Source: Mycobacteriales bacterium (GTDB taxonomy: Bacteria; Actinomycetota; Actinomycetes; Mycobacteriales; SCTD01). From it: a stretch of DNA of 39,531 nt. The stretch lies in contig JBBDWV010000017.1 in NCBI GenBank assembly GCA_040902655.1, positions 1-39,531 of the forward strand. Direction: 5' to 3'. The notes beneath the pieces were generated by a model that saw only the letters and a program-made list of their open reading frames with translations, had not been told where the DNA came from and made no database searches. A program made the position numbers and the translations under genes. Each line of letters begins with the position of its first letter. The first letter of the stretch is position 1. Positions 18,365-35,552 of the stretch are shown one piece after another.

Positions 18365-20068
18365 GTGAGCAGCCAGCAGCCGCACAGTCGCAAGCCCCGC
18401 AGCACCGACGTCACCGAGGGCGACCAGCGCGCGCCCGCCCGCGCCATGCTGCGCGCCGTCGGGATGACCGACGAGGACATGAGCAAGCCGCAGATCGGGA
18501 TCGCCTCGTCCTGGAACGAGATCACTCCGTGCAACCTCTCGCTCGACCGCCTGGCGAAGGCGTCGAAGCAGGGCGTGCGCGCGGCCGGCGGCTTCCCGAT
18601 GGAGTTCGGGACCATCTCGGTCTCCGACGGGATCTCGATGGGACACGAGGGGATGCGCGCCTCGCTGGTCTCCCGCGAGGTCATCGCCGACTCGGTCGAG
18701 ACCGTGATGTTCGCGGAGCGGCTCGACGGCTCGGTCACGCTCGCGGGCTGTGACAAGTCGCTGCCCGGGATGCTGATGGCCGCCGCACGGCTCGACCTCG
18801 CGAGCGTGTTCCTCTACGCCGGCTCGACGCTGCCCGGCAAGCTTGCCGGGCTGAACGGTGTCGACCGTGACCTCACCATCATCGACGTGTTCGAAGGCGT
18901 CGGGGCGCTCGCGCGCGGGCTCATCACCCGGGAGGAGCTGACCGCGATCGAGAAGGCGACCTGCCCGGGCGAGGGCGCCTGCGGCGGCATGTACACCGCC
19001 AACACCATGGCCAGCGCCGCCGAGGCGCTCGGCATGTCGCTGCCGGGAAGCGCCGCCCCGCCCGCCGTCGACAAGCGCCGCGACGCCTACGCGATCGCCT
19101 CCGGCGAGGCCGTCGTCCGGCTCGTCGACGCCGGCATCACCGCGCGGCAGATCCTCACGAAGGAGGCGTTCGAGAACGCCATCACGGTGGTGATGGCGCT
19201 CGGCGGGTCGACCAACGCGGTGCTGCACCTGCTCGCGATCGCGCACGAGGCCCGGGTCGAGCTGTCCTACGACGACTTCACCCGGATCGCGGCGCGGGTG
19301 CCGCACCTGGCCGACGTGAAGCCGTTCGGCCGCTACGTCATGACCGACGTCGACCGGATCGGCGGCATCCCCGTCGTGATGAAGGCGCTGCTCGACGTCG
19401 GTCTGCTGCACGGCGACGTGCTGACCGTCACCGGCAAAACGATGCGCGAGAACCTCGAGGCGCTCGACATCCCGCCGCTCGACGGGGAGGTGCTGCGGGC
19501 GATGGACGACCCGATCCACCGCACGGGCGGCATCACGATCCTGCACGGCTCGCTGGCCCCCGACGGCGCTGTCGTGAAGAGCGCCGGCTTCGAGGCGCAG
19601 GTCTTCGAGGGCACTGCCCGCGTCTACGACGGCGAGCAGGGCTGCATGGACGCCGTCGTCGACGGGACGCTGAAGGCCGGCGACGTCTGCGTCATCCGGT
19701 ACGAAGGGCCCAAGGGCGGGCCGGGCATGCGCGAGATGCTGATGGTCACCGGCGCCATCAAGGGAGCGGGCCTCGGCAAGGACGTGCTGCTGCTCACGGA
19801 CGGCCGCTTCTCCGGCGGCACCACCGGCCTGTGCGTCGGTCACGTCGCGCCGGAGGCGACCGACGGCGGGCCGATCGCGCTGGTGCAGGACGGCGACCGG
19901 ATCCGCCTCGACCTGCAGACCAGCACCCTCGATCTGCTCGTCGACGCCGAGGAGCTCGAGCGCCGGCGGGCCGGCTGGAAGCCGCTGGAGCCGCGCTACA
20001 CCACCGGCGTCCTCGGCAAGTACGCCAAGCTCGTCGGCTCGGCCGCGCAGGGCGCCATCACGGGATGA
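18365..20068 (+). CDS. ilvD: Dihydroxy-acid dehydratase
   Basis: The third common step of valine and isoleucine synthesis, dehydrating 2,3-dihydroxy acids to 2-keto acids. It has 567 residues, normal for the long Fe-S type. Key motifs are [34 protein letters not shown] (cluster cysteine), [16 protein letters not shown] (second cysteine), [14 protein letters not shown] and the C-terminal [20 protein letters not shown]. The GTG start is set by the -10 box 6 nt upstream and the N-terminus [12 protein letters not shown] that leads into the family core. It lies apart from ilvBNC: the attenuator-controlled ilvB promoter follows its stop by about 15 bp. Confidence 0.96.
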
Positions 20069-20083
20069 CCGTGGTCCCTCGGC

Positions 20084-20112
20084 TTGACAGCGGCGGCTGC
20101 CCCTAGCAGTCT
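20084..20112 (+). promoter_or_regulatory. ilvB leader promoter (TTGACA, 17 bp, CAGTCT)
   Basis: A consensus -35 TTGACA (20084-20089) is followed after exactly 17 bp by CAGTCT (20107-20112). CAGTCT ends 6 nt before the GTG of the leader peptide, so the leader message is probably leaderless. Confidence 0.65.
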
Positions 20113-20118
20113 GGTGGG

Positions 20119-20145
20119 GTGCTCAGCGTCCTCGTAGTTCCCTAG
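20119..20145 (+). CDS. ilvBNC leader peptide
   Basis: An eight-codon frame: GTG CTC AGC GTC CTC GTA GTT CCC then TAG (MLSVLVVP). Two Leu and three Val codons out of eight, with GTA and CTC among the scarcer codons in such GC-rich DNA. It is followed by a pause-type hairpin and an intrinsic terminator before ilvB. This is the standard layout of ribosome-mediated attenuation, in which shortage of charged tRNA-Val or tRNA-Leu stalls the ribosome and lets transcription read on. Confidence 0.75.
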
Positions 20146-20171
20146 CGCGCCTGCCGCCCCGGCAGCCGCGC
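20145..20171 (+). promoter_or_regulatory. Hairpin 1 of the ilvB attenuator
   Basis: CTGCCG and CGGCAG pair around CCC (20151-20165). Flanking GCGC sequences can extend the stem. It begins at the leader peptide stop codon, as expected for a pause or anti-antiterminator hairpin. Confidence 0.55.
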
Positions 20172-20173
20172 TC

Positions 20174-20209
20174 ACCCCTCCGTGCCCTGGGCACGAGGGG
20201 TTCTTTTTT
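20174..20209 (+). terminator. Intrinsic terminator of the ilvB attenuator
   Basis: CCCCTCCGTGCC and GGCACGAGGGG pair as an 11-bp stem with one bulged C and a 3-nt loop. It is followed directly by TTCTTTTTT. This is the best T-tailed terminator in the window, and it lies 40 nt before the ilvB start, so it must act as a conditional terminator. Confidence 0.85.
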
Positions 20210-20249
20210 GCCCGAACCCGCTCCGCCCGCCAGAAGGAAGTCGCCTGAG

Positions 20250-21995
20250 ATGACCGAGAGCCTCACCGGAGCCCAGCTGCTCGTCCGCTCGCTCGAGGGC
20301 GTCGGTGCCGAGGTCGTCTTCGGCATTCCGGGGGGCGCGATCCTGCCGGCCTACGACCCGCTGTTCGACAGCCGGACCGTGCGCCACATCCTGGTCCGGC
20401 ACGAGCAGGGCGCCGGCCACGCGGCCGAGGGCTACGCGCAGGCGACCGGCAAGGTCGGCGTCTGCATGGCGACCAGCGGCCCCGGCGCGACCAACCTCGT
20501 GACGCCGATCGCCGATGCCTACATGGACAGCGTCCCGATGGTGGCCATCACCGGGCAGGTCCCGAGCGCGGCCATCGGCACCGATGCGTTCCAGGAAGCC
20601 GACATCGTCGGCATCACGATGCCGATCACCAAGCACAACTTCCTGGTGCAGTCCGTCGACGACATCCCGCGCACCATCGCGGAGGCCTTCCACCTGGCCA
20701 GCACCGGCCGGCCGGGTCCGGTGCTCGTCGACCTGCCCAAGGACATCCTGCAGGCACACGGCGAGTTCAACTGGCCGCCGCAGCTCGACCTGCCCGGCTA
20801 CCACCCCACCACCCGCCCGCATGCCAAGCAGATCCGCGAGGCGGCCAGGCTCATCGCCGGGGCGAAGCGTCCGGTCCTCTACGTCGGCGGCGGTGTCCTC
20901 AAGGCGCGCGCGGCCGCCGAGCTGCGGGTGCTGGCCGAGCTGACCGGCATCCCGGTGGTGACGACCCTGATGGCCCGCGGCGCCTTCCCCGACAGTCACC
21001 CGCAGCACGTCGGCATGCCCGGCATGCACGGCACCGTCGCCGCGGTCACCGCGCTGCAGAAGAGCGACCTGCTCATCTGTCTGGGCGCCCGCTTCGACGA
21101 CCGCGTCACCGGCAAGCTGGACTCCTTCGCGCCGGGCGCCGCCGTCATCCACGCCGACATCGACCCAGCCGAGATCGGCAAGAACCGCGCCGCGGACGTG
21201 CCGATCGTGGGCGACTGCCGGGAGACCATTGCCGACCTCGTGGTGGCCGTCGGCGAGCTGTACGACGCCGGCACCCGCGCCGACCTCACCGGCTGGTGGA
21301 CCGAGCTCGACGGCTGGCGCGAGCGCTACCCCCTCGGCTACGCCGAACCCACCGACGGCTCGCTCGCGCCCCAGCACGTCATCACCCGCATCGGCCAGCT
21401 CGCCGGGCCGGAGGCGATCTATGTGAGTGGTGTCGGCCAGCACCAGATGTGGGCCAGCCAGTTCATCTCGTACGAGAACCCCTACACCTGGCTGAACTCC
21501 GGCGGCGCCGGGACCATGGGCTACGCCGTCCCGGCCGCGATGGGCGCCAAGGTCGGCCGTCCGGAGGCGACCGTGTGGGCGATCGACGGCGACGGCTGCT
21601 TCCAGATGACCAACCAGGAGCTCGTCACCTGCGCGATCGAGGGGATCCCGATCAAGGTCGCCATCATCAACAACGGCAACCTCGGCATGGTGCGCCAGTG
21701 GCAGACGCTGTTCTACGGCAGCCGCTACTCCAACACCGTGCTGCAGAGCAAGCGCATCCCCGACTTCGTCAAACTCGCCGAGGCGATGGGCTGCATCGGC
21801 CTGCGCTGCGACAGCAAGGCCGACATCGATGCCACGATCGAGAAGGCGATGGCGGTCGACGACGCGCCGGTCGTCGTCGACTTCGTCGTGGGGGAGGACG
21901 CCATGGTGTGGCCGATGGTCCCGGCCGGCACCAGCAACGACGAGATCCTCGCTGCTCGCGACACCCGCCCGGTCTGGGACGCCACCGATGTGTAG
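20250..21995 (+). CDS. ilvB: Acetolactate synthase large (catalytic) subunit
   Basis: A thiamine diphosphate enzyme condensing two pyruvates, or pyruvate with 2-ketobutyrate, at the start of Val/Leu/Ile synthesis. It has 581 residues. The N-terminal domain has [14 protein letters not shown] and the catalytic glutamate in [15 protein letters not shown] central FAD-binding domain follows. The C-terminal ThDP-Mg motif is [20 protein letters not shown] through [15 protein letters not shown] 20250 has a ribosome binding site (AGAAGGAAG, 20232-20240). An in-frame TTG at 20208 lies inside the terminator T-run and is not used. Controlled by the attenuator upstream; first gene of ilvBNC. Confidence 0.97.
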
Positions 21996-22037
21996 GACGG
22001 CCGGACGTCCCCGTCCCCACCCCGCCCAGGAGCACTG

Positions 22038-22565
22038 ATGGCCCTCACCCGCCACACCCTGTCTGTTCTCGTCGAGAACAAGCCGGGGGTCCTCGCTCGC
22101 GTCGCGGCCCTGTTCAGCCGCCGTGGCTTCAACATCGAGTCGCTGGCCGTCGGGCCGACCGAGCACCCGACCGTGAGCCGGATGACGATCGTCGTCGCCG
22201 TGGAGGACCTGCCGCTGGAGCAGGTCACCAAGCAGCTCAACAAACTCGTCAACGTGCTGAAGATCGTCGAACTCGACCCGGGAGCGAGCGTCCAGCGCGA
22301 GCTGCTCCTGGTGAAGGTCAGGGCCGACCTGACCAGCCGCAGCCACGTGCTCGAGACGGTCCAGCTCTTCCGGGCCAAGGTGGTCGACGTCGCCGCCGAC
22401 GCCGTCACCGTCGAGGCGACCGGCACCACCGAGAAGCTCGCCGCCCTGATCCGGGTGCTCGAACCGTTCGGCATCCGCGAGCTGGTGCAGTCCGGCATGG
22501 TCGCCGTCGGCCGCGGTTCCCGGTCGATGACCGGTGCCGAGGCCCGCCTCCGCAACGCCTCCTGA
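22038..22565 (+). CDS. ilvN: Acetolactate synthase small (regulatory) subunit
   Basis: Binds IlvB, raises its activity and gives valine feedback inhibition. It has 175 residues. The N-terminal ACT domain (TLSVLVENKPGVLARVAALF, then FNIESLAVGPTEHPTVSRMT) is followed by the ALS_ss C-terminal domain (REL.LVKVRAD, then VDVAADAVTVEATG). AGGAG lies about 6 nt before the ATG. It is 42 nt after ilvB and 57 nt before ilvC. Confidence 0.97.
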   Translation: MALTRHTLSVLVENKPGVLARVAALFSRRGFNIESLAVGPTEHPTVSRMTIVVAVEDLPLEQVTKQLNKLVNVLKIVELDPGASVQRELLLVKVRADLTSRSHVLETVQLFRAKVVDVAADAVTVEATGTTEKLAALIRVLEPFGIRELVQSGMVAVGRGSRSMTGAEARLRNAS

Positions 22566-23624
<1,059 letters not shown>

Positions 23625-23637
23625 TCCAAGAACGCAG

Positions 23638-23670
23638 ACGGCCCGGTCCCCGCGAGGGAGCCGGGCCGTC
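23638..23670. terminator. Bidirectional hairpin terminator between ilvC and the metalloprotease gene
   Basis: GACGGCCCGG and CCGGGCCGTC pair perfectly, with a further TCCC/GGGA pairing inside and a small loop. There is no T-run. It sits between two convergent genes, 13 bp from each coding end or stop. Confidence 0.8.
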
Positions 23671-23684
23671 GTGCGTGCCAGGGA

Positions 23685-26012
23685 CTAGCTCGCCGGGCCG
23701 AACCAGCCGGCGACGTCGGCGAGCAGGGCGACCGACCCGGCGGCGTTGCGCAGCCGGACCGAGCGGTTGCCCAGCTTGACCACGACCAGGTCGGCCGCGG
23801 TCTGCCCGGCCGCCAGGTTGAGGTTGGACACCTCCGGCACACTGCTCGCCGTGGCCGGGTAGACGCGCACGTCCGTGCTCGCGGTGGCGCCGACGCCGGT
23901 CACGTTGAGCACCGCCGCATCAGCCAGACTCGGCACCTGTGCGACGCCGCCGACCCGCAGCGCGAGGGACGACCCCGGCCCCACGGTCGTGGGAGCGGTG
24001 GCGCTGGTGCCCAGGCGGGTGCGGGTGTCCAGGATGCGCGAGGGGTTCACCGGCCGGAACACCGAGCCGGCGGTGCTGTCGTCGTACCACCCGGCGACGT
24101 CGGCCAGCAGGTGCACAGCTCCGGTCTGGTTGCGCAGCCGGACCTTGCCGTCCTGACCCACCTTGACGAGAACGACGTTGGCAACGGCGGCGCCCGGTCG
24201 GACGTTGATGTTGCTGACGACCGGTGGTGCGGTCTCGACGAGCGGGGTCGGATAGACGCGGACGTCCGTCGAGGTGGTCGCGTGCACCGCCGTGACCGTC
24301 AAGGCGACGGCGGACGCGCCCGCCGGGACGGGACTGGGTCCGCCCGACACCGACAGGTCGACCACCTCGCCGGGCCCGACCGGGGTCGTGCGGGTGGTGC
24401 CCAGCTGCGCGCGGGTGTCGAGGATCCGGACCGGGTCGGCGGGAGTGAAGGTCGCCGCGGCGGCCGGCGCGTAGTAGCCGGCCAGGTCGGCGAGCAGCTG
24501 GACGGCGCCCGCCTGGTTGCGCAGCCGGACGCGGCCGTTGTTGCCGACCGGCACCGTGACCAGGTTGGCCCGGGTGATGCCGCGCGCCAGGTTGAGGTTG
24601 GACACCTCGGGCACCGCCGAGAGCACCACCGGGGTGGGGTAGACGCGGATGTCGGTGCCGCTGGAGGGCGCCACCCCGGTCACGTTCAGGACGACGGCGG
24701 TCGCCCCAACCGGCACGCCGTGGTGACCGGCGACCTGCAGGTCCACCACGCCACCGGGCTGGACGGCGGCTTTCGGCGCACCGACGCCTTCGCGGGTGTC
24801 CAGCACGCGCACCGGGTCGATCGCGGAGTACCGCACTCCGCGCAGCGCCGGCACGGCATAGCCCATGTCGGCGAACATCCCCATCGCGATCTGCCCCGGG
24901 TCGGCCAGCGACTCGCCCGGATCGATGAACGGCGTCATCAGCCCGTCGGCGTCCTCGCCGGGATAGCTGGCCTCGTCGAGGTGGCCGTAGGACGTGCCCC
25001 ACAGGAACGACTCGGGCGCGTACAGGCGGACCTTGCCGCCGCCCGCGGCCGTCCGCCCGAGCTGACCGGCCCAGTACAGCCGGTCGCCGGTGAGCGCGTT
25101 GCGCAGCTCGGCCGAGCCGTCCGGCAGCGACAGGATGCGCGTGCCGCCGTTGCCGGCCTGCGCCTGCGTCGTGGCGTAGGTGAACGCGTCGAAGGAGACC
25201 CCGGAGCGCACGCCGGAGGAGCCGTTGACCGAGCGGTCGCCGACGGTGGCGGTGCCGGAGGCGTCGACGTTCGCGGTCCCCACCAGACCGAGCCCGTGGC
25301 CGATCTCGTGCAGCACCACGGTCGCGAAGTCGTACTGGTCGGCGGGCGGGTTGCCGTCGAGGCCGAAGTAGAGCCCGGGGGCCTGCGGGTTGAAGGCCGC
25401 TTCGATGTCCGGTTCGCCCGGCAGGCCGTCGACGCCACGGCGGGCGTTGCTCAGCGCCACCGGCTCGAACACGTCGTCGCTGAAGGCCGCGGTTCCCTTG
25501 TCGTTGCGCAGGAAGTCATAGGGCCCGGCGCCGCCGAGGATCGCCGGGTCACCGAAGGTGGTGGCTGTGGCCTCCACCTGGATCGGCACCGGCGACTCGA
25601 TGATCCGCTCCCACACCTGCACGGCCTGCTCGAACGCCGCCTTGGCCGGCTCCGTCCAGATCGCGCCGTCGCTCCGGTAGGTCACGACGATGTCGGAGAC
25701 CGGTGCGGCCGCCAGCGAGCCGCTCGCTGCCGGGCCGGTGGTCGTGGGGCCGGAGCTCGGGGCCGCCGTGCCGGTGCGCAGGTCGGCACCCGGCCGCAGC
25801 TCGCCCCGGCGGACGATTCCGCGCGGGAGCTCGCCGTAGCTCGTGTCGCCGGCCGCCAGTGCGGCTCGAAGGCTGACCGGAGCGTTGCGCAGGCTGTCAG
25901 AGCCGGCGCCGGGGCCGGCGCTGGCCGGGACTGCGGCGGCCAGGCTGGCCGCCGTCACGGCCGCGGCGAGCAGGGCGGCGGCGACGGGACGGCGGAGGGG
26001 GTGGGCGCGCAC
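23685..26012 (-). CDS. Secreted matrixin-like metalloprotease with three C-terminal repeats
   Basis: A 775-residue exported protein. GTG 26012, preceded by AGGAG, gives a signal peptide of about 32 residues ending ASA. Residues 105-390 form a metalloprotease domain with VVLHEIGHGLGLVG (H235, E236, H239) and a Met-turn-like DGLMTPF (356-362). The position of the third metzincin histidine is glycine (G245); H344 in SYGHLDEASYP could be the alternative ligand. Residues 394-772 are three repeats of about 125 residues, each with DPVRxLDTR, VLNVTGV, DxRVYPT, SNLNLA and VRLRNxAGxVxLLADxAGW/Y. They are probably beta-rich modules for binding the cell surface or substrate. It is divergent from serA and convergent with ilvC. 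Its placement among biosynthesis genes suggests insertion rather than functional linkage. Confidence 0.85.
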   Translation of the reverse strand: MRAHPLRRPVAAALLAAAVTAASLAAAVPASAGPGAGSDSLRNAPVSLRAALAAGDTSYGELPRGIVRRGELRPGADLRTGTAAPSSGPTTTGPAASGSLAAAPVSDIVVTYRSDGAIWTEPAKAAFEQAVQVWERIIESPVPIQVEATATTFGDPAILGGAGPYDFLRNDKGTAAFSDDVFEPVALSNARRGVDGLPGEPDIEAAFNPQAPGLYFGLDGNPPADQYDFATVVLHEIGHGLGLVGTANVDASGTATVGDRSVNGSSGVRSGVSFDAFTYATTQAQAGNGGTRILSLPDGSAELRNALTGDRLYWAGQLGRTAAGGGKVRLYAPESFLWGTSYGHLDEASYPGEDADGLMTPFIDPGESLADPGQIAMGMFADMGYAVPALRGVRYSAIDPVRVLDTREGVGAPKAAVQPGGVVDLQVAGHHGVPVGATAVVLNVTGVAPSSGTDIRVYPTPVVLSAVPEVSNLNLARGITRANLVTVPVGNNGRVRLRNQAGAVQLLADLAGYYAPAAAATFTPADPVRILDTRAQLGTTRTTPVGPGEVVDLSVSGGPSPVPAGASAVALTVTAVHATTSTDVRVYPTPLVETAPPVVSNINVRPGAAVANVVLVKVGQDGKVRLRNQTGAVHLLADVAGWYDDSTAGSVFRPVNPSRILDTRTRLGTSATAPTTVGPGSSLALRVGGVAQVPSLADAAVLNVTGVGATASTDVRVYPATASSVPEVSNLNLAAGQTAADLVVVKLGNRSVRLRNAAGSVALLADVAGWFGPAS
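23697..24833 (-). repeat. Three tandem ~125-residue protein repeats (RVLDTR modules)
   Basis: Protein repeats at about residues 394-515, 522-643 and 652-772 of the metalloprotease. Each opens with DPVRVLDTR, DPVRILDTR or NPSRILDTR and closes with LLADLAGYY, LLADVAGWY or LLADVAGWF. They are clearly homologous but diverged at the DNA level, so the duplication is old. Confidence 0.9.
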
Positions 26013-26124
26013 GAAGGCTCCTGGAGGGACTGCGAGAGGGGGAGGGCGCACAGCTTCCCAGGTCAGGAGGTGCTGCGGGCGGACCTTCGGAAAATCGGGT
26101 GGGTCGGGCCGAGGGGCCCGCCGG

Positions 26125-26130
26125 TACGCT
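26125..26130 (+). promoter_or_regulatory. -10 box TACGCT upstream of serA
   Basis: TACGCT lies 89 nt before the serA GTG. The intervening leader can form a hairpin at 26141-26160 (CCTGC with GCAGG enclosing CCGCGCGG). I see no leader peptide there. Confidence 0.45.
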
Positions 26131-26219
26131 CGGCCGCGAACCTGCCCGCGCGGGAGCAGGTGCCCGCCGATCCGGCAGCCCCACCCGAGGCCCCGCCCGC
26201 CACAGCCCGAGGACCGACC

Positions 26220-27824
26220 GTGACCGTCGTGACCCCTGCTCGCCCCGTCGTCCTGCTCGCCGAGGAACTGGCGCCGTCCGTGGTCGCCGTCCTCGGCGCC
26301 GGCGTGGAGGTCCGCTCCGTCGACGGCGCCGACCGCGCGGCGCTGCTGCCGGCGTTGGCCGAGGCGGACGCCCTGATCGTCCGCAGCGCGACCCGGGTGG
26401 ACGCGGAGGCGCTCGCCGCGGCGCCCGGACTGAAGGTGGTCGCCCGCGCCGGCATCGGGCTGGACAACGTCGACGTGCCCGCGGCCACCGCCCGCGGGGT
26501 GATGGTCGTCAACGCGCCGCAGAGCAACATCGTCAGTGCCGCCGAGCAGGCGGTCGCGCTGCTGCTGGCCTGCGCCCGCAACACCGCGCCGGCCAACGCA
26601 GCGCTCAAGTCCGGCCGCTGGGAGCGCAGCCGCTGGACCGGTGTCGAGGTCGCGGACAAGGTCGTCGGGGTGGTCGGTCTCGGCCGCATCGGCGTGCTGT
26701 TCGCCCAGCGCATGTCCGCCTTCGGCACGCAGCTGATCGCCTACGACCCGTACGTCTCGGCGGCTCGTGCAGCGCAGATCGGGGTGCGGCTGGTCGGCCT
26801 GGACGAGCTGCTGCGGGAGAGCGACTTCATCTCCGTCCATCTGCCGAAGACGCCGGAGACCGTGGGGCTGATCGGGGAGAAGGAGCTCGCGCTCTGCAAG
26901 CCCACGGTGCGGATCGTCAACGCCGCACGGGGTGGGCTGCTCGACGAGACGGCGCTCGCCCAGGCCCTGGAGGCCGGCACGGTGGCCGGCGCGGGGCTGG
27001 ACGTCTTCGCCAGCGAGCCGTGCACCGACTCACCGCTGTTCGCCTTCGACTCCGTGGTCGTCGCCCCGCACCTGGGCGCCTCGACCGTCGAGGCGCAGGA
27101 CAAGGCCGGTATCGCGGTCGCTCGTTCCGTGCGCCTGGCGCTGGAGGGCGACTTCGTGCCCGACGCCGTGAACGTGCAGGCTGCCGGGGCGGTCGCCGAG
27201 GAGCTGCGGCCGGCGCTGCCGCTGGTCGAGAAGCTCGGCCGTGTCTTCACCGCGCTGGCGGGAGGGGTGGCCGCGAGCCTGGAGGTGCTGGTGCGCGGCG
27301 AGATCGCCGAGCTGGACGTCTCGGTGCTCCAGCTGGCCGCGCTCAAGGGCGTCTTCGAGGACGTCGTGGAGGAGCAGGTCACCTTCGTCAACGCCCCCGC
27401 GCTGGCGGCCGAGCGTGGTGTGGAGGTGTCCTTGACGACGGACCGGGAGAGCCCGGAGTACCGCAACGTCATCACCCTCCGCGGCGTGCTGCCCGCAGGT
27501 GACCCGATCTCGGTGTCCGGGACGCTCGTCGGCACCCGCCAGGTCGAGAAGCTGGTGGAGATCGAGGGCGTGGACGTGGAGCTGCCGGCGACCGGTCATC
27601 TGGTGTTCTTCCGGTACGAGGACCGCCCCGGCGTCGTCGGTCAGGTCGGCGTGCAGCTCGGCGCAGCCGGCATCAACATCGCCGGCGCCCAGGTCGGCCG
27701 GGACAAGCAGGGTGGCCACGCTCTGATGGCGGTGACGGTCGACGAGGCGGTGCCGGCGGATGTCCTGCAGGGCATCTGCACGGCCATCGACGCCGGGTCG
27801 GCGCGCACGGTCTGGCTGCCGTGA
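26220..27824 (+). CDS. serA: D-3-phosphoglycerate dehydrogenase
   Basis: First step of serine synthesis, oxidising 3-phosphoglycerate with NAD+. It has 534 residues, the long actinobacterial form with an extra substrate-binding domain and an ACT domain. It has GIGLDNVDVPAAT, the Rossmann motif VGVVGLGRIGVLFAQRM, and the catalytic Arg in NAARGGLLDE, Glu in ASEPCTD and His in APHLGAST. The allosteric domain spans about 310-455, and the C-terminal ACT domain (FFRYEDRPGVVGQVGVQLG) probably senses serine. GTG 26220 follows GAGGA. The stop overlaps the next gene (GTGA). Confidence 0.96.
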   Translation: MTVVTPARPVVLLAEELAPSVVAVLGAGVEVRSVDGADRAALLPALAEADALIVRSATRVDAEALAAAPGLKVVARAGIGLDNVDVPAATARGVMVVNAPQSNIVSAAEQAVALLLACARNTAPANAALKSGRWERSRWTGVEVADKVVGVVGLGRIGVLFAQRMSAFGTQLIAYDPYVSAARAAQIGVRLVGLDELLRESDFISVHLPKTPETVGLIGEKELALCKPTVRIVNAARGGLLDETALAQALEAGTVAGAGLDVFASEPCTDSPLFAFDSVVVAPHLGASTVEAQDKAGIAVARSVRLALEGDFVPDAVNVQAAGAVAEELRPALPLVEKLGRVFTALAGGVAASLEVLVRGEIAELDVSVLQLAALKGVFEDVVEEQVTFVNAPALAAERGVEVSLTTDRESPEYRNVITLRGVLPAGDPISVSGTLVGTRQVEKLVEIEGVDVELPATGHLVFFRYEDRPGVVGQVGVQLGAAGINIAGAQVGRDKQGGHALMAVTVDEAVPADVLQGICTAIDAGSARTVWLP

Positions 27825-28693
27825 GCCTGTTCTCCTCGTACGACGGGACCCGGCTGGCCTGCACCGAGCTCGGCAGCGGGCCGCGGCTGGTCTGCCTGCC
27901 CGGCGGCCCGGGTCGCGCCAGCGCCTATCTGGAGGACCTGGCCGGGCTCGACGACGTGCGCACGCTGGTACTGCTCGACCCGCGCGCCACCAGGCGCAGT
28001 GAGGTGCCGGCCGACCCCGCGTCGCTGCGCTTCGACCGGCTGGCCGAGGACGTCGAAGCCCTGCGCGAGCACCTGGCCGTCCAGGATCCACAGTGCGAGC
28101 GGATCGACCTGCTCGGCCACTCTGCGGGCTGCCTGGTGGCGCAGGCGTACGCCGCGACGCACCCGGACCGGCTGCGCTCGCTGGTGCTCGTCACACCGAG
28201 CGACCGGCTGCAGGGCGGCACGCGCGAGGACGTGGCGGGCATCCGCGCCGCCCGTTCCGGCGAGCCGTGGTACGCCGAGGCTGCCGAGGCCCAGGAGGCG
28301 CTGGCGTACGCCGCGCCGGCCCAGCAGCAGGCGCTGGTGCGGGCCACCCGGCCGTTCTTCTACGGCCGCTGGGACGAGCGGACCCAGGCGCACGCCGCCA
28401 CCGCCGACACCCAGAGCAGCAAGCGGGCCGAACTCGGCTTCGGTGCCGGCATCGAGCAGGTCGACGTCGCCGGGATCCGGGCGGCGCTCGCGAGCCTGGA
28501 CCTGCCGGTGCTCGTCGTCGGCGGTGAGCGCGACGCGCTGACCGGCGTCGCGTCGGTGCACACCGTGGCGGCGGACTTCCGGCGCGCGCAGACCGTCGTG
28601 CTGCCGCGGGCCGGCCACTTCCCCTGGGTCGACGAGCCGGAGGCCTTCCGGGCGGCGGTAGAGGAGTTCCTGCGCGTCGCCGCCCGAGGTTAG
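27821..28693 (+). CDS. Alpha/beta hydrolase (proline iminopeptidase-like)
   Basis: A 290-residue alpha/beta hydrolase. It has CLPGGPGR (the oxyanion-type HGGPG region), the nucleophile elbow GHSAGC (S101), an acid in VVGGERDALTG and the catalytic histidine in RAGHFPWVDEP. The GGPG and overall order resemble proline iminopeptidases, but substrate specificity cannot be told. It is translationally coupled to serA (GTGA overlap). There is no signal peptide, so it is cytoplasmic. Confidence 0.87.
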   Translation: MSLFSSYDGTRLACTELGSGPRLVCLPGGPGRASAYLEDLAGLDDVRTLVLLDPRATRRSEVPADPASLRFDRLAEDVEALREHLAVQDPQCERIDLLGHSAGCLVAQAYAATHPDRLRSLVLVTPSDRLQGGTREDVAGIRAARSGEPWYAEAAEAQEALAYAAPAQQQALVRATRPFFYGRWDERTQAHAATADTQSSKRAELGFGAGIEQVDVAGIRAALASLDLPVLVVGGERDALTGVASVHTVAADFRRAQTVVLPRAGHFPWVDEPEAFRAAVEEFLRVAARG

Positions 28694-28740
28694 GGCTGGC
28701 CCGACGATCCCGACGAGGGGCCGGGGCCACTCGCACATCG

Positions 28741-28828
28741 ACATGTGCCGCCCAGCGGGTGTTGCACCACAGGTCAACTTTTTGCGATTGTTGACCTGTG
28801 GTGCACACCGCCCGGACGGCACACGTGT
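28741..28828. repeat. Long inverted repeat with a perfect 16-bp core
   Basis: TGCACCACAGGTCAAC (28763-28778) and GTTGACCTGTGGTGCA (28790-28805) are perfect reverse complements around an 11-nt loop TTTTTGCGATT. Pairing continues imperfectly outward to about 28741 and 28828 (ACATGTGCCGCCC against GGACGGCACACGTGT). The core has lower GC than its surroundings, and there is no T-run after the right arm. The 28694-28956 interval contains no gene I can support. It may be a terminator, a protein-binding site or a small mobile-element relic. Confidence 0.85.
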
Positions 28829-28956
28829 CTGCGGAGCGACGCGCCCGTGGTCCATGAGCAGGCAGCCACCGACGTCGGGTGACGTGCCGCCGAAGCTGAG
28901 CCTGGCGGGCGGCTGCCGGATCACTCCCCTGCCGCCTGCCCCACCCCGGGGCGTCG

Positions 28957-28969
28957 TAGGATGGTCCCC
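28957..28969 (+). promoter_or_regulatory. -10 box TAGGAT for the leuA leader
   Basis: TAGGAT (28957-28962) matches TANNNT and ends 7 nt before the GTG of the Leu-rich leader peptide. No convincing -35 is seen. Confidence 0.55.
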
Positions 28970-28998
28970 GTGTTCCTGACGAGGCTGCTGCTTACCTG

Positions 28999-29020
<22 letters not shown>
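28970..29020 (+). CDS. leuA leader peptide
   Basis: A 16-codon frame MFLTRLLLTCRGGALS ending in TAG, starting 7 nt after a -10 box. It has five Leu codons, three of them consecutive (CTG CTG CTT), the last followed by ACC TGC. A GC-rich hairpin overlaps its 3' end. This is the layout of a leucine-responsive attenuator; leader peptides of this kind are known upstream of leuA in Streptomyces. An in-frame ATG at 28961 lies inside the -10 box and is less likely to be the start. Confidence 0.68.
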
Positions 29021-30796
<1,776 letters not shown>

Positions 30797-30798
30797 AA

Positions 30799-30814
30799 TG
30801 GGACGGCCGTCCCA
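30799..30814. promoter_or_regulatory. Perfect 16-bp palindrome over the leuB -35 region
   Basis: TGGGACGGCCGTCCCA is a gapless palindrome, 3 bp after the leuA stop and 7 bp before the leuB -10 box. With a 17-bp spacer the -35 hexamer would fall at 30799-30804, inside it. A repressor binding here could block RNA polymerase. With no loop it is a poor terminator. Confidence 0.5.
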
Positions 30815-30821
30815 CGTTCGT

Positions 30822-30833
30822 TAGGCTCGGCCG
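30822..30833 (+). promoter_or_regulatory. -10 box TAGGCT of a leaderless promoter for leuB
   Basis: TAGGCT (30822-30827) ends 6 nt before ATG 30834; no ribosome binding site lies between. The hexamer and spacing are identical to those before the gene at 4548. Confidence 0.62.
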
Positions 30834-31853
30834 ATGAGCACCCGGCTGGCGGTCATCGGCGGCGACGGCATCGGCCCCGAGGTGGTGGCGGTGGGCCTGC
30901 AGGTCCTCGACGCCGTCCTGCCCGGCGTCGAGCGCACCGACTACGACCTGGGCGCCCGGGCGTACGCCCGGACCGGCGAGGCGCTGCCGGACGGCGTCCT
31001 GGACGAGCTGCGCGGCCACGACGCGATCCTGCTCGGGGCGATCGGCGACCCGAGCGTGCCTCCCGGGGTGCTCGAGCGCGGCCTGCTGCTCACGCTGCGC
31101 TTCGCCCTCGACCACCACGTGAACCTGCGGCCGGTGCGGCTGTTCCCGGGCGTGCCGAGCCCGGTGGGTGACCGGGCGATCGATCTGGTCGTCGTGCGCG
31201 AGGGCACCGAGGGGCCCTACGTCGGCAACGGCGGACGGCTGCGCCAGGGGACGCCGCACGAGGTGGCCACCGAGGTCAGCCTCAACACGGCGTACGGCGT
31301 GGAGCGGGTGGTGCGGGACGCGTTCGTGCGGGCGCAGGCGCGGGAGCGCCGGCACCTGACGCTGGTGCACAAGACCAACGTCCTGGTCCACGCCGGTGGC
31401 CTGTGGAGTCGGATCTTCGACGAGGTGTCGGCCGGCTTCCCCGACGTCAGCACCGACTACGCGCACGTCGACGCGGCGTCGATGTTCTTCGTGACGCAGC
31501 CCGAGCGGTTCGACGTCATCGTCACCGACAACCTGTTCGGCGACATCCTCACCGACATCGGTGCCGCCATCGGCGGCGGCATCGGCCTGGCGGCCAGCGG
31601 CAACATCGACGTGACCCGCACCAACCCGTCGATGTTCGAGCCCGTGCACGGCAGCGCACCGGACATCGCCGGACAGGGCAGGGCAGATCCGACCGCCGCC
31701 GTGCTGTCGGTGGCGCTGCTGCTGGAGCACCTGGGACATGTCGACGCCGCCCGGCGGGTCGAGGCGGCGGTCGCGGCCGACCTGCTCACCCGCGGCACGA
31801 CCGCGCGCTCGACGTCGCAGGTCCGCGACGCGCTGCTGGCTCAGCTGGCCTGA
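30834..31853 (+). CDS. leuB: 3-Isopropylmalate dehydrogenase
   Basis: NAD-dependent oxidative decarboxylation of 3-isopropylmalate. It has 339 residues, the actinobacterial short form. It has [14 protein letters not shown] at the N-terminus, the substrate-binding [25 protein letters not shown], the metal-binding [20 protein letters not shown], and [18 protein letters not shown] for the cofactor loop. It is transcribed from its own promoter with a palindrome over the -35 site. ilvE follows 78 bp later. Confidence 0.96.
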
Positions 31854-31865
31854 GCCCGTTTCGGA

Positions 31866-31871
31866 TACGGT
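31866..31871 (+). promoter_or_regulatory. -10 box TACGGT upstream of ilvE
   Basis: TACGGT matches TANNNT. It lies 60 nt before the ilvE ATG, which has its own ribosome binding site. Confidence 0.4.
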
Positions 31872-31931
31872 CAGGGCGGCGGCGCGGGCGGTCCCTCGAC
31901 CGCGTCGGGACGGACGGATGGAGAGAGCCGC

Positions 31932-33035
31932 ATGACTGTCACAGCCGGCATCGAGAAGGTGCCGAGCAGCTCGCCGCGCAGCGACGCCGAGCGTGCGGCG
32001 CTGATGGCCGACCCGGGGTTCGGGCGGGTCCACACCGACCACATGGTGGCGATCCGCTGGAGCATCGACAAGGGTTGGCACGACGCCAGACTGACGGCGT
32101 ACGAGCCGCTGCAGCTCGACCCGTCGGCGATGGTGCTGCACTACGGCCAGGCCATCTTCGAAGGGCTCAAGGCCTACCGCCAGCCGGACGGGGGGGTCGC
32201 CGTCTTCCGGCCGGAGGAGAACGCCCGGCGCTTCAACCGCTCCGCCGCCCGCCTGGCCATGCCTGAGCTGCCGGCCGAGCTGTTCCTGTCGTCGGTCGAC
32301 GCGCTGGTCGAGGCCGACCGCGCCTGGGTGCCGACCGCCGAGGGCCAGAGCCTGTATCTGCGGCCCTTCATGATCGCCACCGAGGGGCAGGTCGGCATGC
32401 GCCCCGCGCAGGAGTACCTCTTCCTGCTGATCGCCTTCCCGGTGACGCCCTTCTTCCCAGGCGAGGTCAAGCCGGTGACGGTGTGGCTGTCCGACGAGTA
32501 CGTCCGCGCGGCCGTCGGCGGCACCGGCGAGGCCAAGTGCGCCGGCAACTACGCCGGCAGCCTGCTGGCCCAGCGCCAGGCAGCCGAGCAGGGATGCGAC
32601 CAGGTCGTGTGGCTCGACGCGGTGGAGCGGCGCTGGGTCGAGGAGATGGGCGGGATGAACCTGTTCTTCGTCCTGTCCGGGGCGGACGGCGGGGCCCGGC
32701 TGCTCACTCCGGCGCTGACCGGCACGCTGCTGCCCGGCGTGGTCCGCGATTCGTTGCTCCGGCTCGCGCCGGAGCTCGGGCTCCCGGTCGAGCAGGGGCG
32801 GCTGTCGGTCGACGACTGGCGCAAGGGCGTCGCGGACGGTTCGCTGACCGAGGTCTTCGCGTGCGGTACGGCAGCGGTCATCGCGCCGGTCGGGCACGTG
32901 AAGGGCCCGACAGGCGAGTGGACGATGGGCGACGGCTCGCCCGGCCCGGTCACGCTCCGGCTGCGCGCGGCGCTGCTCGACCTGCAGTACGGCCGGGCCG
33001 CCGACCCGCACGGCTGGATGCGCCGGGTGGGCTGA
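31932..33035 (+). CDS. ilvE: Branched-chain amino acid aminotransferase
   Basis: PLP-dependent transaminase for the last step to Val, Leu and Ile. It has 367 residues, type II BCAT. The fold-type IV core includes LHYGQAIFEGLKAYR, the PLP lysine K202 in GEAKCAGNYAGSLLAQ, and WVEEMGGMNLFFV. The C-terminal EVFACGTAAVIAPVG binds the cofactor phosphate. ATG 31932 is preceded by GGAGAGAG. The FAH-family gene begins 1 nt after its stop, so ilvE, this gene and gltX form a tight unit. Confidence 0.96.
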   Translation: MTVTAGIEKVPSSSPRSDAERAALMADPGFGRVHTDHMVAIRWSIDKGWHDARLTAYEPLQLDPSAMVLHYGQAIFEGLKAYRQPDGGVAVFRPEENARRFNRSAARLAMPELPAELFLSSVDALVEADRAWVPTAEGQSLYLRPFMIATEGQVGMRPAQEYLFLLIAFPVTPFFPGEVKPVTVWLSDEYVRAAVGGTGEAKCAGNYAGSLLAQRQAAEQGCDQVVWLDAVERRWVEEMGGMNLFFVLSGADGGARLLTPALTGTLLPGVVRDSLLRLAPELGLPVEQGRLSVDDWRKGVADGSLTEVFACGTAAVIAPVGHVKGPTGEWTMGDGSPGPVTLRLRAALLDLQYGRAADPHGWMRRVG

Positions 33036-33036
33036 G

Positions 33037-33822
33037 GTGCGCATCGCCCGTTACGCCCGCTCCGGCGACATCGCCTTCGGCCTGGTGGAGGGCTCCGGTG
33101 CGGACCTGTCGCTCGCGCCCCTGCAGGGCCACCCGCTGTTCGACCCGACGCCGACGGGCGAGGTCGTCGCGTTGTCCGCCGTCCGCCTGCTCGCTCCGAC
33201 CCAGCCGATCAACGTCGTGTGTATCGGCAAGAACTACGCCGACCACGTACGCGAGATGGCCGGCCTCACCGCCGGGCCGGCCGATCCGGGCATCCCCACG
33301 GTCTTCCTCAAGCCGGCCACCTCGGTCATCGGCGCCGGGGACCCGATCCGGCTGCCGGCCGCCGCCGGCCGGGTCGAGCACGAGGCGGAGCTGGCCGTCG
33401 TCATCGGCAAGCCGGCGCGGGACCTGTCCACCGGCAACGCCCTGGCCCACGTGTGGGGCTACACCGCCGCCAACGACGTCACCGCGCGCGAGCAGCAGAA
33501 GAGCGACGGGCAGTGGACCCGCGGCAAGGGCCACGACACCTTCTGCCCGCTCGGGCCGTGGATCGAGACCGACCTCGACCCGAGCGACCTGCGGGTGCGC
33601 TGCGAGGTGGACGAGGTGCTCCGTCAGGACGGCAACACCCGCGACCTGCTGCACGACGTGCCGGCGATCCTGGCGTTCGTCACCTCTTTCATGACGCTGC
33701 TGCCCGGTGACGTCGTGCTCACCGGGACCCCCGCGGGCGTCGGGCCCCTGGTGCCGGGTGAGCAGGTCGCCGTCGAGGTCGAAGGGATCGGCACCCTCAC
33801 CAATCCGGTGGTGGCGCGGTGA
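33037..33822 (+). CDS. Fumarylacetoacetate hydrolase (FAH) family protein
   Basis: A 261-residue protein. A short N-terminal DUF2437-like domain (about 1-55) is followed by the FAH fold: CIGKNYADHVREM, PTVFLKPATSVIGAGDPI, the metal-binding glutamates in VEHEAELAVVIGK, GYTAANDVTARE, KGHDTFCPLGPWI and DVVLTGTPAGVG. Such enzymes are hydrolases, hydratases or oxaloacetate decarboxylases, and the substrate cannot be told. GTG start 1 nt after ilvE; the stop overlaps gltX (GTGA). This position before gltX is common in Actinomycetes. Confidence 0.88.
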   Translation: MRIARYARSGDIAFGLVEGSGADLSLAPLQGHPLFDPTPTGEVVALSAVRLLAPTQPINVVCIGKNYADHVREMAGLTAGPADPGIPTVFLKPATSVIGAGDPIRLPAAAGRVEHEAELAVVIGKPARDLSTGNALAHVWGYTAANDVTAREQQKSDGQWTRGKGHDTFCPLGPWIETDLDPSDLRVRCEVDEVLRQDGNTRDLLHDVPAILAFVTSFMTLLPGDVVLTGTPAGVGPLVPGEQVAVEVEGIGTLTNPVVAR

Positions 33823-35309
33823 GCGTGCGCGTGCGCGTCGCGCCCTCGCCGACGGGCGACCCCCACGTCGGGACGGCGTACATGTCCCTGTTCAACCTGG
33901 CCTTCGCCCGGCAGCAGGGTGGGCAGTTCGTGCTGCGCGTCGAGGACACCGACCGGGCGCGTTTCCGGGCCGACAGCGAGCAGCAGGTGTACGACACGCT
34001 GCGCTGGCTCGGCCTCGACTGGGACGAGGGCCCCGACAGGGGCGGCGCCTACGCGCCGTACCGGCAGAGCGAGCGACTCGACACCTACCGGCCGCACGTC
34101 GACCGGCTGCTGGCGGAGGGGCACGCCTACCTGTGCTGGTGCAGCGGCGAGCGGCTGAAGGCGATGCGCGAGGACCAGCAGAAGCGCAAGGTGCCGACCG
34201 GCTACGACCGGCTGTGCGTCGGCAAGGTCGAGACCGAACGCGCGGCGCTGCCAGGTTTCTCGCCGACTCCGGTGGTCCGCATGCTGGTGCCGGAGGACCC
34301 GCCGCTGTCCTTCGTCGACCTGATCCGGGGGCAGGTGTCGGCGCCGCGACCGGACGACCAGGTGATCCTCAAGGGGGACGGCTTCCCGACCTACCACCTG
34401 GCCGTGGTCGTGGACGACCACCTGATGGGGATCACCCACGTCGTCCGCGGCGAGGAGTGGATCTCCTCCACGCCCAAGCACCTGCTGCTGTTCGACTGGC
34501 TGGGCTGGGAGCGGCCGCAGTTCGCGCACATGCCGCTGCTGCGCAACATCGACAAGAGCAAGATCTCCAAGCGGAAGAACCCCGCGGCCCGGCTGACCTG
34601 GTTCCAGGAGCAGGGTTACCTGCCGGAGGCGCTGCTGAACTTCCTCGGGCTGCTCGGCTACTCGCTGCCCGAGGCGGAGAAAGAGATCTTCTCCTTCGCC
34701 GAGATGTCCGCGAGCTTCGACTGGACGCGGGTCAACACGGTCGGGCCGGTGTTCGACCTCGACAAGCTGGGCTGGCTGAACGGCCACTACGTCCGGGAGC
34801 TGTCCGAGGCCGATTTCGCCTCGCGGGTGCTGCCGTTCCTGCAGCGTGCGGGTCTGGTCGCCGATCCCGCCGGGGCCGGCGAGCTGGCGCTGGTGTCGGC
34901 GATGGTGCCGGCCGTGCAGACCCGGGTAGCAGTGCTGAGCGAGTTGCCGGAGCTGGTCGGCTTCCTGTTCGTGCCGGAGGAGGACTTCGCCGTCGACCCG
35001 GCGGCTGCGGCCAAGGCACTCACGCCGGCGAACGCGCCGGTGCTCACGGCCGCGGCGAAGGCCCTCGAGGGCGTGGGGGAGTGGACGGCGACCGCTGTCC
35101 AGGCGGCCGTGGACGCCGCGCTGCTCGAGGGCGGGCTGGGCCTGAAGCGCAACAAGGCCTACCTGCCGCTGCGCGCCGCCGTCTGCGGGCGGGCGATCGC
35201 GCCGCCGCTGGACGAGTCGATCGCGCTGCTGGGGCGCGAGCGGGCGCTGCGACGGCTGCGGGCGGCGGCGGTCGCGGCTGCGGGCGAGCCGGCCGGCGAC
35301 GTCGGCTAG
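33819..35309 (+). CDS. gltX: Glutamyl-tRNA synthetase (probably non-discriminating)
   Basis: Class I synthetase charging tRNA-Glu and, in organisms with GatCAB, probably also tRNA-Gln with glutamate. It has 496 residues. It has the HIGH-type motif PSPTGDPHVGTAY at the N-terminus, FVLRVEDTDRARF, and the KMSKS-equivalent KSKISKRKNP (about 245-254). An alpha-helical anticodon-binding domain follows. The GTG start overlaps the preceding stop. The stop codon TAG itself is part of a TAGACT -10 box for the downstream tRNA genes. Non-discrimination is inferred from the indirect pathway, not from a diagnostic residue. Confidence 0.95.
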   Translation: MSVRVRVAPSPTGDPHVGTAYMSLFNLAFARQQGGQFVLRVEDTDRARFRADSEQQVYDTLRWLGLDWDEGPDRGGAYAPYRQSERLDTYRPHVDRLLAEGHAYLCWCSGERLKAMREDQQKRKVPTGYDRLCVGKVETERAALPGFSPTPVVRMLVPEDPPLSFVDLIRGQVSAPRPDDQVILKGDGFPTYHLAVVVDDHLMGITHVVRGEEWISSTPKHLLLFDWLGWERPQFAHMPLLRNIDKSKISKRKNPAARLTWFQEQGYLPEALLNFLGLLGYSLPEAEKEIFSFAEMSASFDWTRVNTVGPVFDLDKLGWLNGHYVRELSEADFASRVLPFLQRAGLVADPAGAGELALVSAMVPAVQTRVAVLSELPELVGFLFVPEEDFAVDPAAAAKALTPANAPVLTAAAKALEGVGEWTATAVQAAVDAALLEGGLGLKRNKAYLPLRAAVCGRAIAPPLDESIALLGRERALRRLRAAAVAAAGEPAGDVG

Positions 35310-35312
35310 ACT
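35307..35312 (+). promoter_or_regulatory. -10 box TAGACT for the tRNA-Gln/tRNA-Glu unit
   Basis: TAGACT overlaps the gltX stop codon and lies 39 nt before tRNA-Gln. No strong -35 is visible in the GC-rich gltX end. The tRNAs could also be read through from gltX. Confidence 0.5.
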
Positions 35313-35351
35313 CTCTCGCGGACCGCAGGGGCGACCCCCCGGCGGCTCCTG

Positions 35352-35423
35352 TGGGGTATGGGGTAATTGGCAGCCCGGCGGTTTCTGGTTCCGTTAGTCT
35401 TGGTTCGAGTCCAGGTACCCCAG
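35352..35423 (+). tRNA. tRNA-Gln (anticodon CUG)
   Basis: A 72-nt cloverleaf. The acceptor TGGGGTA pairs with TACCCCA (35416-35422), with discriminator G, U8 present and a T-loop TTCGAGT. The anticodon loop TTCTGGT gives CTG. The closing anticodon pair is an unusual U31-U39 apposition and position 27-43 is G-U. The weak first pair U1-A72 is normal for tRNA-Gln. CCA is not encoded. Confidence 0.93.
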
Positions 35424-35469
35424 CGTAGGACCGGTCTTCTCGGCTGACCGGACAAGTTCATCTTCCTAG

Positions 35470-35542
35470 GGCCCCGTCGTCTAGCGGCCTAGGACGCCGC
35501 CCTCTCACGGCGGTAGCGCGAGTTCGAATCTCGTCGGGGCTA
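35470..35542 (+). tRNA. tRNA-Glu (anticodon CUC)
   Basis: A 73-nt cloverleaf. The acceptor GGCCCCG pairs with CGGGGCT (G1-U72), U8 is present, and the D-loop includes TAGCGGCCTAGGA. The anticodon arm CGCCG/CGGCG has the loop CCCTCTCA region giving CTC. The T-arm GCGAG/CTCGT has loop TTCGAAT. The discriminator is A and CCA is not encoded. A 46-nt spacer with a small GACCGGTC-type hairpin separates it from tRNA-Gln. Confidence 0.93.
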
Positions 35543-35552
35543 CGTGCAGCAT

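Follow-up and report, generated by a model that had tools for sequence, protein, structure and literature searches.

A predicted leaderless, ribosome-mediated attenuator upstream of ilvBNC in a Mycobacteriales genome, and related elements before cimA and leuS

The window analyzed here, the whole 39,531-nucleotide stretch of DNA, carries ilvD (stop codon at 20068), the element under study, ilvB (ATG at 20250), ilvN (22038 to 22565), and ilvC (22623 to 23624), in that order. More broadly, positions 18500 to 35543 form a branched-chain amino acid cluster of ilvD, ilvB, ilvN, ilvC, leuA (29084 to 30796), leuB (30834 to 31853), and ilvE (31932 to 33035), with gltX and the genes for tRNA-Gln and tRNA-Glu downstream of ilvE. 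The element and the gene behind it comprise the following features.

20084 to 20089, plus strand: -35 element TTGACA, read from the sequence, with similar -35 boxes in relatives
20107 to 20112, plus strand: -10 element CAGTCT (NANNNT), read from the sequence, with CAGGCT, CACCCT, and CACTCT at the same place in relatives
20119 to 20145, plus strand: predicted transcription start and leaderless leader open reading frame (ORF), GTG to TAG, MLSVLVVP and stop, from the sequence, relatives, and promoter spacing
20131 to 20139, plus strand: sensor codons CTC GTA GTT (Leu-Val-Val), from the shared register with the cimA and leuS sensors and from Val codon usage
20144 to 20172, plus strand: hairpin P1, with foot AGCGCG/CGCGCU starting in the stop codon, from folding and covariation
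20174 to 20201, plus strand: intrinsic terminator hairpin T, 1 nt (C20173) after P1, from a terminator scan, folding, and covariation
20202 to 20209, plus strand: terminator T tract TCTTTTTT, read from the sequence
20232 to 20240, plus strand: ilvB ribosome binding site AGAAGGAAG, read from the sequence
20250 to 21995, plus strand: ilvB, acetolactate synthase large subunit (NF005860, 1109.4 bits; cut-off, 881)

The -35 and -10 elements are separated by 17 nt, and GTG 20119 lies 6 nt 3' of the -10 element. This arrangement had been described in the first-pass annotation of this DNA and was found again, as were the eight-codon Leu/Val-rich peptide MLSVLVVP at 20119 to 20145 and the ilvB ribosome binding site at 20232 to 20240. 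CAGTCT matches TATAAT at 2 of 6 positions, and a generic promoter scan called no promoter at the element because this hexamer falls below the -10 cut-off of the scan (4 of 6). The leader reads GTG CTC AGC GTC CTC GTA GTT CCC TAG, and GTG 20119 is its sole possible start, since an in-frame TAG is found at 20104 to 20106 with no other start codon between them. No Shine-Dalgarno sequence was seen by eye at a usable distance from this GTG. The first 29 nt of the transcript were predicted to be nearly unstructured (-2.1 kcal/mol, not better than shuffled sequences), a condition for ribosome entry at the 5' end. Given the 6-nt discriminator, the transcript would begin on the G of GTG. On the 5' side of the -35 element, a palindrome like TGGGACGNNCGTCCCA was observed in relatives L005, L006, and L008, with a loose resemblance by eye to the S. 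coelicolor NdgR motif as excerpted from the literature; its counterpart in the window (20060 to 20083) appears degenerate and shares positions with the ilvD stop codon.

The element was sought upstream of ilvB in 110 loci, which are not independent and include many close kin; 81 of them yielded curated P1 and T pairs. Dropped rows were L031 and L032, which duplicate L003 and L015, and L037, L060, L069, L074, L077, and L086, whose picks were wrong or ambiguous; another 21 loci yielded no candidate, and L002 was re-anchored by hand. When the best promoter was picked blind to start codons, an open start codon was found 6 to 8 nt 3' of it in 77 of the 81 loci; L036 and L059 were without a promoter call, and at L053 and L099 the box picked was 20 nt away from an open start codon. 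This choice removes the circularity of an earlier scan, in which 78/79 leaders had a 6- to 8-nt distance (a count that, like its repeat, was circular because leader starts had been chosen partly by a promoter 4 to 9 nt upstream) and 77/79 had a promoter spacer of 17 to 18 nt; its leader picks at L033, L034, L042, L071, and L080 were doubtful, and that at L070 was wrong.

According to excerpts of published work, transcription of the ilvB leader begins at its start codon in C. diphtheriae (PMC5784534) and one nucleotide from it in C. glutamicum (PMC11857589), and S. lividans ilvL is described as "transcribed leaderless," together with six more of the eight leaders of that organism (PMC8079986). 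These reports and the 77/81 loci suggest that a leaderless start is typical of the group, and leaderless leader starts look like the rule among actinobacterial ilvB attenuators. The comparison thus supports the leaderless leader peptide proposed in the first-pass annotation, but its label "unusual" applies only relative to E. coli.

P1 pairs A20144 to G20149 with C20167 to U20172 below an upper stem (-21.1 kcal/mol; 0/200 shuffles as stable), so that a hairpin does begin at the leader stop codon, as had been noted. T had been described as an 11-bp terminator with a T-run; the terminator and its tract are present, but the stem folds into 12 bp interrupted by one bulged C (-20.4 kcal/mol; 0/200 shuffles as stable). 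In an alignment of P1 and T from 29 loci, 96.0% of cells were paired and 10 of 24 pairs had changed on both sides. None of 500 shuffles matched the alignment in either respect, and slid structures paired 31 to 47% of cells. Judged from this alignment, the conservation of P1 and T is not due to chance. The five foot pairs of P1, GCGCG/CGCGC (20145 to 20149 and 20167 to 20171 in the window), were invariant in 29/29 loci, and the upper pairs covaried. P1 spanned 26 to 68 nt among the 81 curated elements. One relative, L002, had a weak terminator tract (TTCTTTCATG) despite an intact leader and P1.

A covariance model of the 29 loci, which include the window, scored the window copy at 97.8 bits and matched 207 of 296 genomes of the class at an E value of 0.01, representing 89 of 115 genera; the downstream gene was traced for some of these matches only. 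Two other hits in the same genome were weak (E values of 0.085 and 0.46), and the better of them, on contig C45, was rejected as a second copy, showing no visible leader or terminator. No Rfam family reached its gathering score at the element. Like actinobacterial ilvB attenuators, the window element lies before ilvB and has a Leu-Val-(Val/Leu/Ile) sensor, P1, and T; like ribosome-mediated attenuators generally, it has a short leader ORF, codons for pathway products, and an intrinsic terminator before the first gene. Comparison with actinobacterial ilvB leaders therefore supports its assignment as an ilvB attenuator. Taken alone, the window copy is an ordinary member of this group, and the switch type is known; published accounts run from a 2005 prediction of actinobacterial ilvB attenuators to later work in Corynebacterium, as far as the excerpted sources go.

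GTA and GTT, the Val codons of the sensor, are the rarest Val codons in the sampled ilv genes, on which rarity was measured. Window ilvBNC contains no GTA and 1 GTT among 109 Val codons, and the ilvB genes of the window's family contain 5 GTA and 6 GTT among 941, versus 18 and 16 of 42 in the leaders of that family. Across all loci, GTA accounted for 85/179 Val codons in leaders and 51/3865 in the matching ilvB genes. At least two Val/Leu codons were present among the last four before P1 in 75/78 ilvB leaders, in a survey that favored Ile-rich ORFs for cimA (a later finder, below, was blind to amino acids). Ile codons are missing from the window copy, as had been noted, and are present in some relatives (e.g., L002, L009, L018, and Streptomyces ILVL). 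A theoretical treatment, as excerpted, has the best sensor codon set by tRNA supply versus codon demand and not by rarity alone (PMC1183508); since sensor quality would depend on that balance, the Val isoacceptor sensed is worth measuring.

Covariance-model hits beyond ilvB included citramalate synthase genes (cimA; NCBIfam TIGR00977 above cut-off in 5/5 tested), whose leaders include MTAVIIII and MHRTAIIIN, each followed by a stop codon. Other hits of the model, in which the leaders have Leu runs (such as MRRTLLLT and MHRSLLLPEPR, likewise followed by stop codons), precede a gene that we take from its sequence to be that for leucyl-tRNA synthetase (leuS). Loci were then scored with an amino-acid-blind finder that sought a -10 element, 6 to 8 nt, a start codon, an ORF, a hairpin, and a terminator. 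At ilvB, the element was found in 88/108 loci and was not found by this finder at 20/108; at least two Ile codons were present in 2 and at least two Val/Leu codons in 71. At cimA, represented by the 30 best-scoring loci of the class, the element was found in 25/30, with at least two Ile codons in 21 and at least two Val/Leu codons in 0. At leuS, represented by 23 of 30 fetched loci (L237 and L242 to L247 not counted), it was found in 17/23, with at least two Leu codons without Val in 17/17. Leaders with at least two Ile codons were thus 21/25 at cimA versus 2/88 at ilvB (Fisher test, P = 8e-17). This finder set the P1 foot too early, so that true leaders scored as empty, at ilvB loci L001, L004, L007, L008, L010, and L029 and at cimA loci L160, L161, and L166.

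In 37 chosen sequences, the sensors stood in one register and were followed by P1 (CTC GTA GTT/CCC, CTG CTC CTT/CCC, and ATC ATC ATT/AAC). This natural codon swap at cimA and leuS supports ribosome sensing and, with the 75/78 ilvB leaders, supports the Val/Leu sensor proposed in the first-pass annotation. It also suggests, from sequence comparison, a portable cassette reused for isoleucine and leucine genes. In the window's family, too, copies are found before genes reading as cimA; cimA was looked for in the genome of the window and was not found. The leuS of this genome (L222, contig C16) is without the leucine leader that is present at 17 of the 23 readable leuS loci (own and relatives), and by eye the start of this gene appears to be 8 nt 3' of TAGGAT. 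In a single example (L283; G022:C91:5232-5313), a copy of the element with the leader MSPTTIIARRVV and a stop codon lies upstream of a small protein, presumably an ACT-domain acetolactate synthase subunit from the way it reads. A literature search that covered few subscription journals returned no such cimA leader in Actinobacteria among the matches listed. A Streptomyces leuS attenuator is already published, according to excerpts of two papers (PMC1262725 and PMC8079986).

In 63/79 leaders, the foot of P1 was located 7 to 8 nt 3' of the final branched-chain codon, and the leader stop codon was -5 to +39 nt from the foot (79 leaders, with the misread ORF L070 excepted). This steady distance to the sensor, against a variable stop position, indicates that P1 seems anchored to the sensor. 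The front edge of a ribosome extends roughly 11 to 16 nt, and the P1 foot seems to lie near the front edge of a ribosome stalled on the sensor. P1 and T were separated by 0 to 1 nt in 67/80 ilvB folds and by 0 to 3 nt in 77/80, compared with 38% and about 62% of shuffles, so shuffled leaders also often end near T. L109 was omitted from the gap, flank, and arm-pairing tests. The initial P1 picker required a C-rich stretch soon after P1, which biases it to small gaps; the gap test folded more freely yet used the T chosen by that picker. Among the chosen sequences, the gap was 0 in 11/13 cimA and 12/12 leuS elements and 1 in 11/12 ilvB elements. P1 overlapped T in 10/81 elements, by 1 nt in L002, L009, L011, L013, and L070 and by 2 to 5 nt in L055, L062, L065, L066, and L100; four of these overlaps, of 1 nt each, fall in the window's family. 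Ordinary exclusion between P1 and T may operate at these 10 elements.

The element is probably a leaderless ribosome-mediated transcription attenuator of ilvBNC that senses charged Val and Leu tRNA. Its leader ORF, Val/Leu codons, P1, T, start spacing, and sensor-P1 register are supported by comparison. We infer the exact start, stalling, premature termination, the response to Val and Leu, and the action of P1 on T, as follows. Transcription would start at or beside G20119, and a ribosome would load on the 5' end without a Shine-Dalgarno sequence and read the eight codons. With Val and Leu plentiful, the ribosome would reach the stop codon and cover the 5' arm of P1, T would close, and transcription would end before ilvB. 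With Val or Leu short, the ribosome would stall on CTC GTA GTT, P1 would form, and ilvBNC would be transcribed. In the least certain step, a formed P1 abutting T (1 nt) would prevent closure of the T base within the RNA polymerase exit channel. Several observations count against this reading or call for caution. In a transcript reading through from ilvD, which ends at 20068, the leader would have no ribosome site. Removal of the leader start codon in C. glutamicum lowered expression by 80%, as reported in excerpts of PMC11857589; this mutant counts against the simple model because antitermination by P1 alone would predict higher expression without translation. The 20/108 ilvB loci at which the amino-acid-blind finder gave no element and the 10/81 elements with a P1-T overlap also count against it. 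The closeness of P1 to T is to be read against the 38% of shuffled leaders ending within 1 nt.

It is doubtful that the element is instead a classical attenuator in which the pairing of a competing antiterminator, of the kind proposed in the three-hairpin C. glutamicum model, was overlooked here. In that species, the AT and T hairpins are described as having a common GCC trinucleotide, where mutations acted largely as predicted; the Morbach mutants and the S. coelicolor results are taken here from citations in later papers. Elements in which P1 and T overlap would fit such a model. The 5' arm of T, however, gained a mean of -0.66 kcal/mol of pairing from P1 across 80 ilvB elements (shuffled, -0.55), with 0/80 at -4 kcal/mol or better and -0.5 in the window from P1 or the whole leader, unlike E. 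coli trp and thr, which gained -9.4 (shuffled, -5.1) and -12.6 (shuffled, -2.2) in the same test; at elements with a P1-T overlap, the test was confined to the part of T outside P1. When 11 nt of the leader were included, -4 was reached in 8/80, with a mean of -2.1 versus -2.8 for shuffles. Three candidate pairings were tried and rejected. The P1 loop with the 3' arm of T gave a mean of -1.3 (shuffled, -1.7), with 4/80 at -4 or better, and lengthening of P1 into T by way of the P1 5' flank was no better for natural flanks than for swapped ones (-2.6 versus -3.2). The leader codons can pair with the 3' arm of T (CCUCGU/ACGAGG; -8.2 in the window [shuffled, -5.9]; 80-locus mean, -8.3 [shuffled, -7.4]), at -6 or better in 54/80, which would suit a classical antiterminator; this pairing was rejected because complementarity is lost where T differs (by eye, e.g., in L025, L029, and L045) and the mean is barely above shuffles. 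A ribosome stalled on the sensor would, moreover, cover the leader stretch able to pair with T. By these arm and flank pairing tests, no antiterminator mutually exclusive with T was found in the window, and the element is therefore filed as a variant attenuator. The first-pass reading stands as to the attenuator, the leaderless leader, and the Val/Leu sensor; "unusual" does not, nor does "complete" in the classical sense, which would call for a T-sequestering antiterminator.

P1 could alternatively be a pause hairpin that synchronizes ribosome and polymerase, with T controlled otherwise, e.g., directly by the stalled ribosome. P1 is stable, local, and near the sensor, and the apex of C. glutamicum H1 has been proposed, in the excerpts consulted, to pause polymerase, but pausing needs no tight spacing between P1 and T, and this explanation is unlikely. 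T lies 105 nt 3' of the ilvD stop codon and might be a mere ilvD terminator beside an accidental short ORF, an explanation made very improbable by the start codon 6 to 8 nt from the promoter in 77/81 loci, the rare sensor codons, and the codon swap at cimA and leuS. Least credible is control of ilvB by a ligand-binding riboswitch: ppGpp riboswitches are described before ilvB in some other bacteria, but no Rfam family was called at the element, what is conserved in it amounts to codons and two simple hairpins, and C. ulcerans ilvB-II RNA is reported in part of that literature to be unresponsive to ppGpp.

Known systems were compared from excerpts of the papers cited above and of PMC10272879, PMC13236596, PMC3890552, and PMC4340878. 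Like the proposed attenuator, that of Corynebacterium ilvBNC (ilvL; ilvB-II motif) lies before ilvB, with the start codon at or one nucleotide from the transcription start (a predicted position in the window), Leu/Val codons, hairpins, and a terminator. Its leader is usually 15 to 17 codons long and in C. glutamicum and C. diphtheriae contains Ile, whereas the window leader has 8 codons and no Ile; its antiterminator is described as overlapping T, whereas P1 and T in the window are adjacent without overlap. Streptomyces ilvL (MRTRILVLGKRVG) shares a leaderless leader (predicted as such in the window), a terminator, and a P1 foot placed 7 nt 3' of the final branched-chain codon, but it has the stop codon 11 nt inside P1, an Ile-Leu-Val-Leu sensor, and a longer P1. 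Codon substitutions in S. coelicolor had no reported effect on ilvB regulation, as cited in PMC1262725, a result that counts against the proposed attenuator. The M. tuberculosis ilvB1 attenuator is similar in its LVVI regulatory codons, the short premature transcript seen there, and its terminator, but a mutually exclusive terminator and anti-terminator have been proposed for it. Streptomyces leuS attenuators (Seliverstov 2005; S. lividans leuL2) also have a leader (here with a Leu run), hairpin, and terminator, and leuL2 is leaderless; they differ in regulating leuS and in a predicted antiterminator. E. coli trp and thr share a leader peptide, regulatory codons, and an intrinsic terminator, but there the antiterminator sequesters T, as the pairing controls confirmed.

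Tentatively, the leaders may constitute a widespread actinobacterial, antiterminator-free cassette with exchangeable codons (Leu-Val-Val at ilvB, Ile-Ile-Ile at cimA, and Leu-Leu-Leu at leuS), in which the ribosome would govern only the formation of P1, and P1, touching T end to end, would physically block its closure in RNA polymerase. The interest of the element lies in this cassette view and the missing antiterminator and not in the window copy itself; rare-codon choice, reuse before cimA and leuS, and the near contact of P1 with T had been missed in the first-pass annotation. If the touching-hairpin reading is true, the element would be a textbook attenuator cut to its minimum and of modular design, in which changing three codons would change the amino acid sensed. 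Because ilvB, cimA, and leuS form a natural series, this codon rule can be tested immediately, and the rarity of the Val codons poses the question of which tRNA isoacceptor is sensed. Even if that reading fails, cimA is added to the genes that are likely attenuated, and the survey still points to leaderless leaders as the norm for the group.
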